The position numbers and the translations under genes are program-made. Shown piece by piece: positions 1,321 to 38,366 of a stretch of DNA of 61,030 bases; position 1 is the first letter of the stretch, and each line of letters opens with the position of its first letter. The notes under the pieces were generated by a model that saw nothing but the letters and a program-made list of their open reading frames with translations, made no database searches and was not told where the DNA came from. This DNA is from Acidocella sp. (lineage in GTDB: Bacteria > Pseudomonadota > Alphaproteobacteria > Acetobacterales > Acetobacteraceae): NCBI GenBank assembly GCA_026224875.1, contig JAMFRU010000048.1, forward strand, positions 1-61,030, read 5' to 3'.

Positions 1321-2499
1321 TTACGCCTGTACTGGCTCGGGAAGGGCGGCGGGGTGCAGCGGCGTGGCCATTTTATGGACCGCCGGGAGAACTTCCTTCG
1401 CGAAAAGCTCGATGCTTTTACGGGCTTCCTCATAGGGCAGGCTGGTGAAGTTGGGGATGATGGTAATTTCGGAGAAGGAACATATTTTCTGGCCCTCGAT
1501 GATGCGGGCGATAATCTCGTCCGGTGTGCCGATGAGCAGGTTGGATTGGTCGTAGCCTTTGGGCGCATTTTTGGGTGCGTTTGCGGGAGCGGGCGCATCA
1601 TTCGTTACAGCCGTGGCGTAGCTCTTGCGGCCGGCGTAATCCTCGTAGCCTTTCACGCCGGCGAAATTGCTGGGGTCGCCGAAACCGTAATGCAAAGAGA
1701 CGTCGCGATTGGCGATGTCTATGTATTCCTGGGCGCGTTTGGCGGCATCCGCGGCGGTGGTGCAGTACATGAAGAGCACCGCTTTGGGCTGGCAGGGGGG
1801 CAGGCCCTGCTCGGCGCGGAAGATGTTGACCTGGCGGACGTCCTGCCCGGCTTCAGTGAGGGGTTTGTTGCCGACGAACAGCGGTTTGAGGCCACGGCGG
1901 GCGTTCAGCTCCAGCGAGGATGGGGTGGAGCTGGCCCCGAACATGCGGGAGGGGAGATCGCGCGAAAGGGGTTGCGGGCGGATCGACATTTCGGGAATTT
2001 TGAAAATTTTGCCGTCGTAGGAGAAGCGCTCTTGGGTTAGGGCCAGCTCCAGAATGTCGATGGATTCGTCGTAGCGCTGGCGGGCGTCGTCGCGTGAGAC
2101 GCCGACGGCGTCGAACTCCAGTTTGGAGACGCCGCGGCCGATTCCGATGGAGTCGAAACGGCCTTTGGAGACGATGTCGAGATAGGCGACCTGATGCGCC
2201 AGGCGGACCGGGTGCCACCAGGGGAGAACGGCGACCATGGTGCCGAGGCCGATGCTCTCGGTGCGGCCGGCGAAATAGGTAAGCAGCTGGATCGGGTTTG
2301 GGGCCATGCCGTAGGGCGTGCCGGAATGTTCGGGGGTCCAGATACCGTCATAGCCCAGCGGTTCGGCGAGGTCGCCGATGGCAAGCAGCTCTTCGATGGA
2401 TTCATGGTCGGGGGTGGCGAGCGGGGTTGAGAAATCGCCGGATGAAAAACGCGGCCAGTCCGCTGAGTTATGAGCGCCTAGACCTAGATTGACCTTCAT
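1321..2499 (-). CDS. LLM class flavin-dependent oxidoreductase
   Basis: This 392-residue protein belongs to the bacterial luciferase-like superfamily: TIM-barrel enzymes using reduced FMN or F420. The family landmarks are visible, namely the EPLGYDGIWTPEH stretch near residue 50, GLGTMVAVLPWWHPVRLA near 85, and the SKGRFDSIGIGRG loop that contacts the phosphate. It starts at ATG 2499 behind AGGAGA. The CoA-transferase follows 5 nt later, and the Rieske oxygenase lies upstream on the same strand about 180 nt away. Its C-terminal region (residues 290-392) is longer than in short members of about 290 residues. It is one of six LLM genes in the window. Substrate is unknown. Confidence 0.9.
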   Translation of the reverse strand: MKVNLGLGAHNSADWPRFSSGDFSTPLATPDHESIEELLAIGDLAEPLGYDGIWTPEHSGTPYGMAPNPIQLLTYFAGRTESIGLGTMVAVLPWWHPVRLAHQVAYLDIVSKGRFDSIGIGRGVSKLEFDAVGVSRDDARQRYDESIDILELALTQERFSYDGKIFKIPEMSIRPQPLSRDLPSRMFGASSTPSSLELNARRGLKPLFVGNKPLTEAGQDVRQVNIFRAEQGLPPCQPKAVLFMYCTTAADAAKRAQEYIDIANRDVSLHYGFGDPSNFAGVKGYEDYAGRKSYATAVTNDAPAPANAPKNAPKGYDQSNLLIGTPDEIIARIIEGQKICSFSEITIIPNFTSLPYEEARKSIELFAKEVLPAVHKMATPLHPAALPEPVQA

Positions 2500-2534
2500 C
2501 TTGTGTTCTCCTGGGGATTCTTTGCGCGCCCGTG

Positions 2535-2620
2535 GTGGGCGCGGCGCCCACGCGTGTGCTTGTGGCGAGAAGATCCCCGCTTTCGCGGGGATGACGTGTT
2601 TGGCTTTCGCGGGGATGACG
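2535..2620. repeat. REP-like palindromic repeats
   Basis: The 180-nt spacer between the Rieske and LLM genes holds an 8-1-8 palindrome at 2535-2551. A second hairpin, ATCCCCGC-TTTC-GCGGGGAT, spans 2573-2592. A further half copy (CTTTCGCGGGGATGACG) lies at 2604-2620. A homologous hairpin with the same flanks occurs at 8425-8444 with a compensating pair change. This fits a dispersed intergenic palindrome family. Confidence 0.75.
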
Positions 2621-2679
2621 GTTGCGGCGGGTGAGTTGTGTGGCGCGATTTTAGTCGGTGAGCGGTTTCGGTGCGCGCT

Positions 2680-35647: not shown

Positions 35648-35656
35648 GGAGGCTTG

Positions 35657-37282
35657 ATGTCTGACCGGCCGAATTTTCTGCTCATCGTCGTGGACGATAT
35701 GGGTTTCTCCGACCTTGGCGCGTTTGGCTCGGAGATCGCGACGCCGCATCTTGATGCTTTGGCTTATGCCGGTGTCCGGCTGACGGATTTTCATTCAGCA
35801 CCTGCCTGTGCACCGACGCGCGCCATGCTGATGACCGGCACGGATCATCATCTTGCCGGCATCGGTGGAATGGTCGAGACGACACGGCCTGATTTTGCAG
35901 GTGCACCAGGCTATGAGGGGTATTTGAACGAGCGCGTGGTGAGCATTGCCGAATTGCTCGGCGAGGGCGGGTACAGGACTTTGCTCTCGGGCAAATGGCA
36001 TTTGGGGGACAAGCCGGAAACCTGGCCGGCGGCGCGCGGGTTTGAGCGAAGTTTCGCGCTGCTCCCCGCTGCACATGATCATTTCGGGCGGGAGATTACC
36101 ACCCCGGCCTTTCCGGTGCCGATGTATGCCGAGGATAATGCCTATGTCACTGAATTGCCGGAAGGGTTCTACTCATCCGATTATTTTACCGACCGGCTGA
36201 TTGGGTTTTTTGAGGAAGGCAAACAGGCTCAGGATGAGCGCCCGTTCTTTGCTTATCTGCCGTTCTCGGCACCGCATTATCCGTTGCAGGCGCCGGATAC
36301 GGAGATTGCGAAATATCGCGGTGTTTATGATGGCGGGCCGGATGCGCTGCGGGAGGCGCGTTTGCAGCGCTTGATCGCGTTGGGGGTTATCCCGGCCGAT
36401 ACGGTGCCGCATCCCGTTACCACCAAGGACCCGGGTTGGGACGAGTATACCGACGAGCAAAAGGCGCTCTCGGCGCGCACGATGGAAATTTATGCGGCGA
36501 TGGTGGACCGGCTGGACCAGAATGTCGGCCGGGTTGTGGAATACCTCAAGGCCACGGGGCAGTTTGAGAACACGGTCATCGTGTTCCTCTCCGATAATGG
36601 CGCCGAGGGGGCGATTGCCGATGCCATGCCGATCCATGGGGCGCATATCGCCAAGCGGGTGCGCGAGACTTGCGATAACAGCCTGGAGAATCTGGGGCGG
36701 CCGAACTCCTATATCTGGTACGGGCCGCGCTGGGCTCAGGCCGCGACCGCGCCGTCGCGGTTGGTGAAGGGGTTTACGACTGAGGGTGGGATTCGGGTGC
36801 CGGCGTTTATTCATTGGCCGGGGGCCAAGCGCACGGGTGTTTCCGGCGTGTTCTCCACTGCCATGGATATCGCGCCCACGTTTCTTGATTTCGCAGGCAT
36901 TGCGCACCCGGCGCCTAGCTACAAAGGGCGGGAGATATTGCCGGTGCGTGGCCGCTCGCTGCGGCCTTGGCTGGAGGGGCAATCCGAGACGGTGCATCCC
37001 GAAGGAACCAGCACGGGATGGGAGCTGTGGGGACGGCGCGCGGTGCGCCAGGATGATTGGAAGGCCGTTTATGTGCCCGATGAGGATGGGGTTTCCAAAT
37101 GGCAGCTGTATGATCTTTCGCGGGACCGCGGCGAGATTGAGGATCTGGCGGACTCACACCCTGAGAAGTTCAAGGAACTGCTCGGTTTGTGGAAGGAATA
37201 TGTGGAGGAGACCGGCGTTATCGAAGAGGCGATTAGTATTTTCGATGCCGATCCCTCGCATTGGCTGCCCAAGCCGAAGTAG
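35657..37282 (+). CDS. Type I (Cys-type) sulfatase, arylsulfatase-like
   Basis: This 541-residue sulfatase has the maturation site C51-A-P-T-R55, where Cys becomes formylglycine. Metal ligands D13 and D14 lie in [10 protein letters not shown], and [12 protein letters not shown] near 310 supplies the second metal pair. No signal peptide is seen, so a cytoplasmic enzyme is likely. That fits with import of the ester first. I chose ATG 35657 behind GAGGAGG over the adjacent TTG. No formylglycine-generating enzyme is encoded in the window apart from the related EgtB fold, so one must exist elsewhere. Coupling to the upstream transporters suggests sulfate ester scavenging. Confidence 0.92.
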
Positions 37283-37367
37283 AGCGGGGCTGACAGAGCG
37301 GGCCGAGGGTGGCAATGTGCGGGAACGTCGGCTGATTGCAGCCCAATAACCGCAGAGGTTCGCCCCA

Positions 37368-38366
37368 ATGACGCCTATCCAGACCACGGTTTCCTTCGAC
37401 ATGCGCGCGCCTGGGTTTGGTCCGCCGACGCAGGCGCTGTATGCCGCCGCGGTTGAAATGGCGGCCTATGCCGATAAAATCGGGGTGGATCGCATCGGGC
37501 TGATGGAGCATCACGGCTCGGAAGATGGCTATCTGCCGCAGCCTTTCGTGCTGGCCGGCGGCATGGCGGCGGTGACGAGGAATATCCGCCTCCTTCTGGG
37601 TGCTGTGATTTTACCGCTGCATGATCCGGTGAACATTGCCGAGCAGATTGCCATTGTGGATTTGATGTCCAACGGGCGGCTTGGGGTGATTTTTGGCGCG
37701 GGCTACGTGCATGAGGAATTCCGGATGTTCGGCGTGTCGCTGCGCGACCGTGGCCGGCTGCTGGATGAGAGCACCGTGACGATTTTGCGGGCTTTGCGCG
37801 GCGAGCGGTTTGCGGTGAATGGAAGGCCGGTTTATGTGCGGCCTTTGCCTGTGCAAAAGCCTGAGGATATCATCTTTATCGGCGGCGGTGTTGCGGCCTC
37901 GGCCAAGCGCGCGGCGCGGCTTGGTGTGGGTTTTGGGCCGATGCGGGCCGATATCATTCCGATTTATGAGGCGGAATGCCGGGCGCTGGGGCGGGAGCCG
38001 GGGGCGTATTTCCGGCCCTGCCATCGCCTGCCGGGGATCGTCATGCTGTCCGAGGACCCGGACCGTACCTGGTCGATACTGGAGCCGCACGCGTTCCATG
38101 TGGTATCCGAATACGCCAAATGGGCGGCGCAAGAGGATAATACCAACTCCCCCTTCAAGGGCCTCACCACGCTCGATGCCTTGCGCAAATCCGGGATGTT
38201 CGCGGTTTGGACGCCCGATGAGCTGGTGGCGAACGCGGATAAGGTCGAGGACCGGGGCACTTTCGTGTTCCAGCCGCTGGTGGGCGGTTTCCCCCCGGAA
38301 GAGGGTTGGAAGAGCCTGGAATTGCTCAAAGATGTAATCCCGCGCCTTAAGGCGGTTAAACGCTAA
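37368..38366 (+). CDS. LLM class flavin-dependent oxidoreductase
   Basis: This 332-residue LLM protein has YADKIGVDRIGLMEHHGSED near residue 30, IRLLLGAVILPLHDPVNIAEQ near 65, and SNGRLGVIFGAGYVHEEFR near 96. It keeps the EHH motif of luciferase-type oxygenases. It begins 85 nt after the sulfatase stop, on the same strand, so it may be the last gene of the organosulfur operon. SsuD, the alkanesulfonate desulfonase, belongs to this superfamily. A desulfonating role is thus plausible, but I cannot identify it as SsuD. A small hairpin at 38381-38397 follows the gene. Confidence 0.88.
   Translation: MTPIQTTVSFDMRAPGFGPPTQALYAAAVEMAAYADKIGVDRIGLMEHHGSEDGYLPQPFVLAGGMAAVTRNIRLLLGAVILPLHDPVNIAEQIAIVDLMSNGRLGVIFGAGYVHEEFRMFGVSLRDRGRLLDESTVTILRALRGERFAVNGRPVYVRPLPVQKPEDIIFIGGGVAASAKRAARLGVGFGPMRADIIPIYEAECRALGREPGAYFRPCHRLPGIVMLSEDPDRTWSILEPHAFHVVSEYAKWAAQEDNTNSPFKGLTTLDALRKSGMFAVWTPDELVANADKVEDRGTFVFQPLVGGFPPEEGWKSLELLKDVIPRLKAVKR

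Follow-up and report, generated by a model that had tools for sequence, protein, structure and literature searches.

Five genes for luciferase-like monooxygenases (LLM1–LLM5) and their neighbours, at positions 128-16801 of the window, appear from their sequences to form an F420-equipped oxidative catabolic island, from which a sixth LLM gene (LLM6) is excluded. The window is the whole 61,030-nucleotide stretch that was analysed and comprises an entire contig (C115) of the source genome (G000; 3.87 Mb in 145 contigs). We put the probability of the island reading at about 0.62, because a core of genes is conserved together in relatives and is contiguous, in two of them, with genes for F420 synthesis and reduction. 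The arrangement suggests a use for F420, a rare redox cofactor.

A cluster of diverse LLM genes

The six LLM genes picked out in a sequence-only reading of this DNA all exist and had been placed correctly: an open reading frame (ORF) check of the window recovered each of them, and each exceeds the Pfam gathering cut-off for PF00296 (131.7-190.2 bits against 27.9). As that reading had also held, they are not recent tandem copies, because the other five are only 18-32% identical to LLM5. PF00296 matches in the genome total 30. In 20,000 trials that each placed 30 genes at random, at least six fell within 37 kb only 5 times and at least five within 14.6 kb only 7 times, so the clustering is not due to chance.

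Only LLM2 (236.9 bits) and LLM3 (229.9 bits) pass the cut-off of 166.9 bits for TIGR03619, an F420-type LLM subfamily in which membership does not prove F420 binding; LLM1, LLM4, LLM5 and LLM6 score below it. Against models for SsuD, SfnG, RutA and LuxA, the six LLMs lie far below the curated cut-offs among the scores listed (the best 25 for four of the LLMs). Judged by sequence, LLM1–LLM5 belong to different subfamilies.

Pfam also detects the neighbours named earlier: Rieske oxygenase, TauD, SDR, CoA-transferase III, GST, cupin, GntR, AraC and TetR proteins and two hotdog thioesterases. The claim that each LLM gene lies beside a regulator or another oxygenase holds except for LLM3, which has DUF7064 and an SDR remnant followed by a sulfotransferase as neighbours, and LLM6, which lies between AtsA and EgtD. 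The island genes are listed below; percentages are identities to the window protein, and the four relatives are G013, G021, G018 and G033.

128-1315, minus strand: CoA-transferase family III (CaiB type); PF02515, 354.8 bits; 93% in G013, 85% in G021
1321-2499, minus strand: LLM1, luciferase-alpha-like; PF00296; best PDB sequence match luciferase 8cbb (3.1e-29)
2680-4131, minus strand: Rieske ring-hydroxylating oxygenase alpha subunit; PF00355 and PF00848; 75-87% in the four relatives
4618-5433, plus strand: GntR/UTRA regulator; PF00392, PF07702; 77-83% in the four relatives
5444-6310, plus strand: LLM2, TIGR03619 F420-type LLM
6432-7298, plus strand: AraC-family regulator; PF12833; 72-79% in the four relatives
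7311-7757, plus strand: cupin; PF07883; 84-87% in G013 and G033
7754-8401, plus strand: glutathione S-transferase (GST); PF13409, PF00043; 87% in the G013 island
8533-9684, minus strand: DUF7064 protein; PF23212, 26.8 bits against 24.7; 78-81% in G021 and G018, 62% in G019
9584-10495, minus strand: LLM3, TIGR03619 F420-type LLM; 77-90% in the four relatives, 74% in G019, 65% in G028, 66% in G555
10531-10734, minus strand: internally deleted SDR remnant; the full counterpart is open over 257 residues at the same place in G013, G021, G018 and G033
about 10749-11894, minus strand: sulfotransferase-family protein (Sulfotransfer_3); PF13469, 129.3 bits; 71-77% in the four relatives
11972-13048, minus strand: LLM4, nearest F420-dependent Mer and TIGR03842; NF002619 105.5 bits and TIGR03842 104.1 bits, both below cut-off; best PDB sequence match Mer (1z69); 76-81% in the four relatives
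13149-13877, plus strand: TetR-family regulator; PF00440; 72% in G021 and G033
14007-14846, plus strand: TauD/TfdA Fe(II)/2-oxoglutarate dioxygenase; PF02668, 205.8 bits; 64-82% in G013, G021 and G033
14880-15938, plus strand: LLM5, luciferase-alpha-like; PF00296
15944-16801, plus strand: SDR, last gene of the TetR-TauD-LLM5-SDR module; PF00106; 85-89% in G021 and G033

The end of the DUF7064 ORF overlaps LLM3, and its real start probably lies inside the ORF. An ORF at 10531-11550 is mostly in the wrong frame, the real content there being the sulfotransferase ORF and the SDR remnant. For both LLM2 and LLM3 the top PDB sequence match is SfnG, which is FMN-dependent, and the structure model of LLM2 is poor (pLDDT 64.8). 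The LLM5 model (pLDDT 78.3) has the Enhygromyxa luciferase 8cbb as its nearest PDB fold, and as predicted it resembles FMN luciferases in fold.

Recurrence of the island in relatives

LLM2 orthologues (85-88%) are found in exactly 5 of the 38 genus genomes, the source genome included. A core of seven genes (those for GntR, LLM2, AraC, Rieske, LLM3, sulfotransferase and LLM4; 71-90% in the four relatives) accompanies LLM2 in all five carriers, with gene order kept where contigs allow: LLM4-sulfotransferase-SDR-LLM3 in four genomes and Rieske-GntR-LLM2-AraC in five. The Rieske copy of G033 is truncated by a contig end. This recurrence supports the idea of a modular oxidative pathway for LLM1–LLM5, though not for LLM6, and it tells against an accidental collection of genes: LLM1–LLM5 do fall into different subfamilies, as such a collection might, yet the genes co-occur. 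Co-occurrence nevertheless rests on few lineages, because the carriers form sister pairs on an rpoB tree (G000 with G013, and G021 with G018; the tree lacks G033 and includes G000 with only 18% of columns).

The flanks vary more. Within the island, LLM1 has been seen only in G000 and G013 (86%); the stretches retrieved from G021, G018 and G033 did not reveal it, and neither cupin nor GST was found in those of G021 and G018. The LLM5 module adjoins LLM4 in the window and in G021; a TetR fragment next to LLM4 marks the end of the contig in G018. In G013 the module is sited elsewhere and is more diverged (53-65%). Among the 397 family genomes drawn, one other (G555) has LLM3, and it also has a CofE match.

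Linkage to F420 genes

Coenzyme F420 did not feature in the sequence-only reading, though two relatives carry an F420 biosynthesis operon right beside the island. The run CofC-CofD-FbiC-FNO::CofE-ACAD-CoAT is contiguous with the island in G013 (contig C63) and G021 (C65), where the next gene outward of the CoA-transferase encodes an acyl-CoA dehydrogenase (ACAD) at the island-facing end of the F420 gene run. In the source genome, the genes from CofC through ACAD lie in the same order, all with open frames, on a separate 7-kb contig (C78; CofC 62% and CofD 85% identical to G013, the fusion 79% to G021). No end overlap between C78 and C115 was found, and a contig break separates the operon from the window; gene order in the relatives indicates that the C78 operon probably abuts the left end of the window. 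The biosynthetic set is complete (CofC, CofD, CofE, CofG/H and NpdG equivalogs), with equivalog cut-offs passed by CofE and NpdG in the G021 fusion, CofGH in the source genome's own FbiC, and CofD and CofC in G013.

All five LLM2 carriers are FbiC-positive (38 genus genomes; Fisher P = 0.0016). Genomes with FbiC (n = 12) have a median of 11 LLMs and those without (n = 26) a median of 1 (Mann–Whitney P = 6e-6, phylogeny ignored), with G015 an exception that has FbiC and only one LLM. With phylogeny considered, this association cannot reach significance because there are only three well-supported independent pairs, and contrasts on these starred branches agree in 3 of 3 cases (P = 0.25). Across the family, F420 genes occur in 89 of 397 genomes, mostly without LLM3.

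FNO and CofE form a single open frame in G000, G013 and G021 and a cut piece of 430 residues in G018; G019 and G028 yielded only the CofE half. In the family search, a single match spanning both halves was obtained only in G000 and G731 (50%, one internal stop), and the halves appear as neighbouring matches in G535, G608, G557 and G009 among the genomes listed. The case for the fusion as a novelty is weak: of 75 plasmid records, 26 have matches spanning 80% or more of the query.

The LLM5 module in mycobacteria

LLM5 is 79-81% identical to proteins of three mycobacteria, with a TetR neighbour at 57-60%, and in two of these a Rieske homologue (48-49%) lies within about 1 kb of LLM5. The Mycobacterium branderi plasmid pJCM12687 (NZ_AP022607) resembles the island in carrying TetR-LLM5-Rieske together with GntR, TauD and SDR homologues (48-79%) over ~19 kb. 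It differs in having no match to LLM1–LLM4, the CoA-transferase or F420 genes in the stretches read, and it carries in addition a gene of RibB/RibA type and SDR genes whose annotation is mycofactocin-coupled. Mycobacterial genomes are GC-rich. A recent import of LLM5 from mycobacteria is not favoured, because the GC content of TauD and LLM5 (0.545-0.550) is low by comparison and below that of the neighbouring genes; derivation of both from a third source is equally likely.

Proposed function and alternatives

In the proposed pathway, the FNO half of the fusion would reduce F420 with NADPH, and LLM2, LLM3 and LLM4 would carry out hydride transfer on the substrate with F420/F420H2. LLM1 and LLM5 would act as FMNH2-type luciferase-like monooxygenases, the Rieske and TauD enzymes would add further oxygen and the SDRs would oxidize alcohols, after which the CoA-transferase and acyl-CoA dehydrogenase would channel the acid so formed into beta-oxidation. 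GntR, AraC and TetR would switch the sub-modules. The substrate may be hydrophobic and cyclic, terpenoid- or aromatic-like.

A different organization, which we consider unlikely, is a catabolic hot spot in which separate modules with their own regulators and substrates have gathered beside the F420 operon for cofactor supply and do not form one pathway. This would fit the separate GntR, AraC and TetR units, the patchy presence of LLM1, cupin and GST, the displaced module in G013 and the occurrence of the LLM5 module without LLM1–LLM4 in the mycobacterial stretches and in G327, but it sits poorly with the two conserved gene orders and with the placement of the LLM5 module (in G018, the TetR fragment) against LLM4.

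It is improbable that the LLMs are instead FMN-dependent two-component monooxygenases for sulfonate, ether or aldehyde oxidation, with the F420 operon a coincidental neighbour: bacterial luciferases are the best matches of LLM1 and LLM5, and SfnG that of LLM2 and LLM3, but the TIGR03619 scores of the latter pair, the FbiC genes of every LLM2 carrier and the contiguity of operon and island in two genomes all point to F420. We regard as very improbable a secondary-metabolite cluster whose product is tailored by the sulfotransferase and oxygenases. Although a sulfotransferase and DUF7064 are present, and passages of a 2021 review place F420-dependent LLMs in antibiotic pathways (PMC8498797), the Pfam scan of 50 window ORFs revealed no synthase or assembly-line gene, and the presence of a CoA-transferase and an acyl-CoA dehydrogenase points to degradation.

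Counting against the island reading itself are that LLM4 passes no cut-off, that the island SDR of the window is broken and that LLM1 is seen in the island only in G000 and G013. We propose tentatively that the catabolic island is self-sufficient and moves horizontally, combining F420 synthesis and reduction, three F420-type hydride transferases, two FMN luciferase-type enzymes and the Rieske and TauD oxygenases, and sharing its LLM5/TetR/Rieske/TauD/SDR part with mycobacteria. If so, F420 would gain its first concrete role in the physiology of Alphaproteobacteria, in the peripheral catabolism of a recalcitrant compound.

Comparison with known systems

The npd genes of Rhodococcus function in picrate and 2,4-dinitrophenol breakdown. 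They resemble the island in combining catabolic F420-dependent hydride transferases of the LLM family with an NADPH:F420 reductase. Here, however, F420 biosynthesis genes also adjoin (in two relatives), as do Rieske, TauD, CoA-transferase and acyl-CoA dehydrogenase genes; the host appears alphaproteobacterium-like, and there is no sign of a nitroaromatic substrate. The F420 genes of Croceicoccus, Aromatoleum and Sinorhizobium plasmids likewise have npdG adjoining cofE, whereas here the two are one open frame (G000, G013 and G021) beside an LLM island.

The review passages state that LLM-type enzymes act in picrate degradation, that why Proteobacteria and Chloroflexi produce F420 is an unanswered question, that as of 2021 no F420-dependent reductase or F420-reducing dehydrogenase from these phyla had been studied experimentally, and that two Alphaproteobacteria contained only trace F420 (PMC8498797). 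Such low amounts might be explained if the cells had been grown in the absence of a substrate that induces the system. With F420 synthesis beside F420-type enzymes, regulators and oxygenases, the island offers specific enzymes and a hypothesis for F420 use. Literature searches found nothing joining F420 with Acetobacteraceae and luciferase, or F420 with Mycobacterium branderi, and nothing naming the island in titles and abstract openings.

LLM6 lies in a separate gene run

The sequence-only reading had treated the six LLM genes as one group, which does not stand: LLM1–LLM5 belong to the recurring island, and LLM6 sits in a sulfur-scavenging and ergothioneine run outside it.

31701-37282, plus strand: separate run of SsuA-type binding protein, permease, ATPase, MFS_2 carrier and AtsA-type arylsulfatase
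37368-38366, plus strand: LLM6; PF00296
38418-40674, plus strand: EgtD and EgtB, ergothioneine synthesis; TIGR03438 and TIGR03440 above cut-offs; directly downstream of LLM6

Among 60 relatives, LLM6 has matches in G033 (82%) and G028 (two, 36-37%). We rejected LLM6 as an island member because, save for weak or distant matches, the window neighbours are not conserved beside it in 18 loci; EgtD/EgtB matches near LLM6 relatives were likewise found in 0 of the 18. Against its exclusion, G033 (locus L007) has homologues of DUF938 (78%) and GST (61%) 4-5 kb from LLM6, and L014 has matches to the sulfatase (31%), TauD (28%) and CoA-transferase (25%). Loci L010, L015, L017, L019, L020, L022 and L023 have one or a few weak matches (24-34%) to SDR, CoA-transferase, LLM2, Rieske or TauD. 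A candidate SsuB-type ATPase beside LLM6 relatives (L006 and L009) was identified as an ABC-2 exporter in a scan of 10 ORFs drawn from six of these 18 loci. The window's arylsulfatase matches PDB 1hdh at 2.8e-210.

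Recurrence of the luciferase-like gene island

As the sequence-only reading described, the window contains six luciferase-like open reading frames (LLM1–LLM6, starting at 1321, 5444, 9584, 11972, 14880 and 37368) that differ in sequence. All six pass the PF00296 cut-off, and LLM5 shares 18–32% identity with the other five. The window is one entire contig, C115; PF00296 has 30 matches in its genome, and random placement of 30 genes put at least six within 37 kb in 5 of 20,000 trials. The SDR previously read at 10531–11550 was mostly in the wrong frame; the real gene there encodes a sulfotransferase-family protein (PF13469), and after it comes the following feature.

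10531–10734, SDR remnant of 67 residues between LLM3 and the sulfotransferase gene, with an internal deletion

Four relatives have an SDR at this place that retains the middle and an open frame of 257 residues.

LLM2 is present in 5 of 38 genus genomes (the window's own, G000, and G013, G018, G021 and G033), at 85–88% identity outside G000. We sought the genes of the island (LLM1–LLM5 and neighbours, 128–16801) in stretches fetched from these carriers and from the FbiC-positive genomes G019 and G028; the stretches are smaller than whole genomes, and absence of an island gene means absence from them. The core genes recur together, as would be expected of the proposed oxidative pathway: GntR, LLM2, AraC, Rieske, LLM3, sulfotransferase and LLM4 are found in all five carriers (71–90% outside G000). 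Gene order is also conserved: five genomes keep Rieske-GntR-LLM2-AraC and four keep LLM4-sulfotransferase-SDR-LLM3, a set that is divided among contigs in G033. G000 and G013 alone have LLM1 within the island. LLM3 also occurs in G019 (74%) and G028 (65%), neither of which has an LLM2 orthologue, and no island was found in the fetched stretches of G001, G004, G009, G032 or G035, which are FbiC-positive or LLM-bearing. Among 397 evenly drawn family genomes, LLM3 is matched at E ≤ 1e-60 in two, G000 and G555 (66%).

The LLM5 module (TetR-TauD-LLM5-SDR, 13149–16801) adjoins LLM4 in the window and in G021. It is on a separate contig in G033 (LLM5 93%) and at another place, more diverged (53–65%), in G013; it was not found in the fetched stretches of G018, where the contig ends in a TetR fragment adjoining LLM4. 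An LLM5 match at E ≤ 1e-70 occurs in 27 of 289 class genomes, own included, with best matches of no more than 45% outside G000. LLM5 is 79–81% identical in 3 of 148 genomes of the genus to which a record titled Mycobacterium belongs (E ≤ 1e-110), 78% in the Pseudomonadota MAG G330 and 66% in a MAG titled Sphingomonas palustris (G327). G327 arranges TetR, TauD, LLM5 and SDR as in the window (49–66%). A TetR homologue (57–60%) adjoins LLM5 in all three mycobacteria, two of which have a Rieske homologue (48–49%) no more than about 1 kb away; only M. branderi has TauD (64%) and SDR (52%) within 17 kb. The 20 kb read in G330 holds no further island protein at ≥30% over ≥45% of length. On the M. branderi plasmid, a RibB/RibA-type gene (L154, 22658–23767) adjoins the LLM5-Rieske pair and is a possible source of flavin or FO precursor.

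Subfamily assignments

LLM2 and LLM3 pass the F420-type TIGR03619 cut-off (236.9 and 229.9 versus 166.9 bits); FMN-dependent SfnG is the top PDB sequence match of both. LLM4 is closest to F420-dependent Mer and TIGR03842, below both cut-offs. LLM1 and LLM5 are closest to bacterial luciferase alpha chains, and a PDB fold search with the LLM5 AlphaFold model (pLDDT 78.3) places Enhygromyxa luciferase chains at ranks 1–4, with F420-dependent Mer first appearing at rank 38. Among the matches listed, all six fall short of the SsuD, SfnG, RutA and LuxA cut-offs, and LLM6 reaches no subfamily cut-off.

Linkage to F420 genes

In two relatives, genes for F420 synthesis and reduction (CofC, CofD, FbiC and FNO::CofE, the last a fusion of an NADPH:F420 reductase half, NpdG, with CofE) are contiguous with the island. 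G013:C63 reads CofC, CofD, FbiC, FNO::CofE, acyl-CoA dehydrogenase, CoA-transferase, LLM1, Rieske, GntR, LLM2, AraC, cupin, GST, LLM3, SDR, sulfotransferase, LLM4. The stretch from AraC to CofC is ordered alike in G021:C65, which lacks LLM1 there. Equivalog cut-offs are passed by NpdG and CofE (G021 fusion), CofGH (own genome) and CofD and CofC (G013). In the window's own genome, the 7,048-base contig C78 carries CofC, CofD, FbiC, FNO::CofE and acyl-CoA dehydrogenase in the G013 order, all five without internal stops; the acyl-CoA dehydrogenase, 97% identical to that of G013, is at the contig end facing the break. No overlap joins C78 to C115, and the end of C78 is a GC-rich, repeat-like stretch, so adjacency of this operon to the island is only probable.

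In G019 and G028 (L164, L165), homologues (70–73%) of the window GH15 gene (50429–52822) are no more than about 1 kb from the F420 operon. Two diverged F420 operons, with FbiC 58–64% identical to the own copy, have an LLM gene between FbiC and the next F420 gene (L167, G004:C247) or directly beside FbiC (L170, G035:C123).

Of the 38 genus genomes, 12 have FbiC (TIGR03551) above its cut-off. These 12 have 1–30 PF00296 matches (median 11), versus 0–5 (median 1) in the remaining 26 (P = 6e-6); in a linear model including genome size, FbiC has t 6.5 and size t 2.6. FbiC requires six changes, three forced by well-supported branches, on an rpoB tree that covers 30 of the 38 genomes and in which four rows have no more than half of the columns (18% in G000). 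Independent pairs on well-supported branches agree in 3 of 3 cases at LLM counts ≥3 and ≥4 and in 2.6 of 3 on average at a count of 6 (median P = 0.25, significance being out of reach with three pairs). G015, with FbiC and one LLM, is a counter-example. Because the FNO-CofE query is matched in 89 of 397 family genomes (31 of 102 genera), nearly always over the CofE half, F420 is not rare in this family, and LLM3 is missing from most carriers.

We conclude that the window island is probably an F420-linked catabolic island, a variant of F420-dependent catabolic clusters. LLM2–LLM4 would use F420 and LLM1 and LLM5 FMNH2; the Rieske and TauD enzymes would add oxygen, and CoA-transferase and acyl-CoA dehydrogenase would complete the breakdown. 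Our guess is a cyclic, hydrophobic substrate. A possible lead is an F420H2-dependent carvone reductase of Rhodococcus, whose existence a literature search did not confirm. The island draws interest since a 2021 review (PMC8498797) describes what F420 does in Proteobacteria as an open question.

LLM6 and other window features

LLM6, which had been grouped with the other five, is treated here as separate, its window neighbours not being kept at 18 loci apart from weak or distant matches. It belongs to the following run.

31701–40674, single same-strand run: SsuA-type ABC transporter, MFS_2, AtsA-type arylsulfatase, LLM6, EgtD, EgtB
37368, LLM6, 86 bases downstream of the AtsA-type arylsulfatase and 52 upstream of EgtD

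The run places sulfate-ester/sulfonate scavenging beside ergothioneine synthesis. Among 60 relatives, LLM6 is matched in G033 (82%) and twice in G028 (36–37%). No AtsA, SsuA or Egt match surrounds the G033 copy; among the ORFs scanned there are an aspartate/ornithine carbamoyltransferase and one with a SnoaL domain, with DUF938 and GST homologues 4–5 kb away. EgtD and EgtB are matched at none of the 18 LLM6 loci of named genomes; one has a sulfatase (31%) and a few have weak matches to other window proteins.

Elsewhere, 25082–29962 encodes a protein of 1626 residues that carries AIDA autotransporter-type repeats and, at its C terminus, a Hint domain, and 29963–31390 a FAD-NAD(P)-binding protein (PF13454), whose 59–67% homologues lie in stretches with other LLM genes, G000:C91 and G004:C166 (L054, L094).
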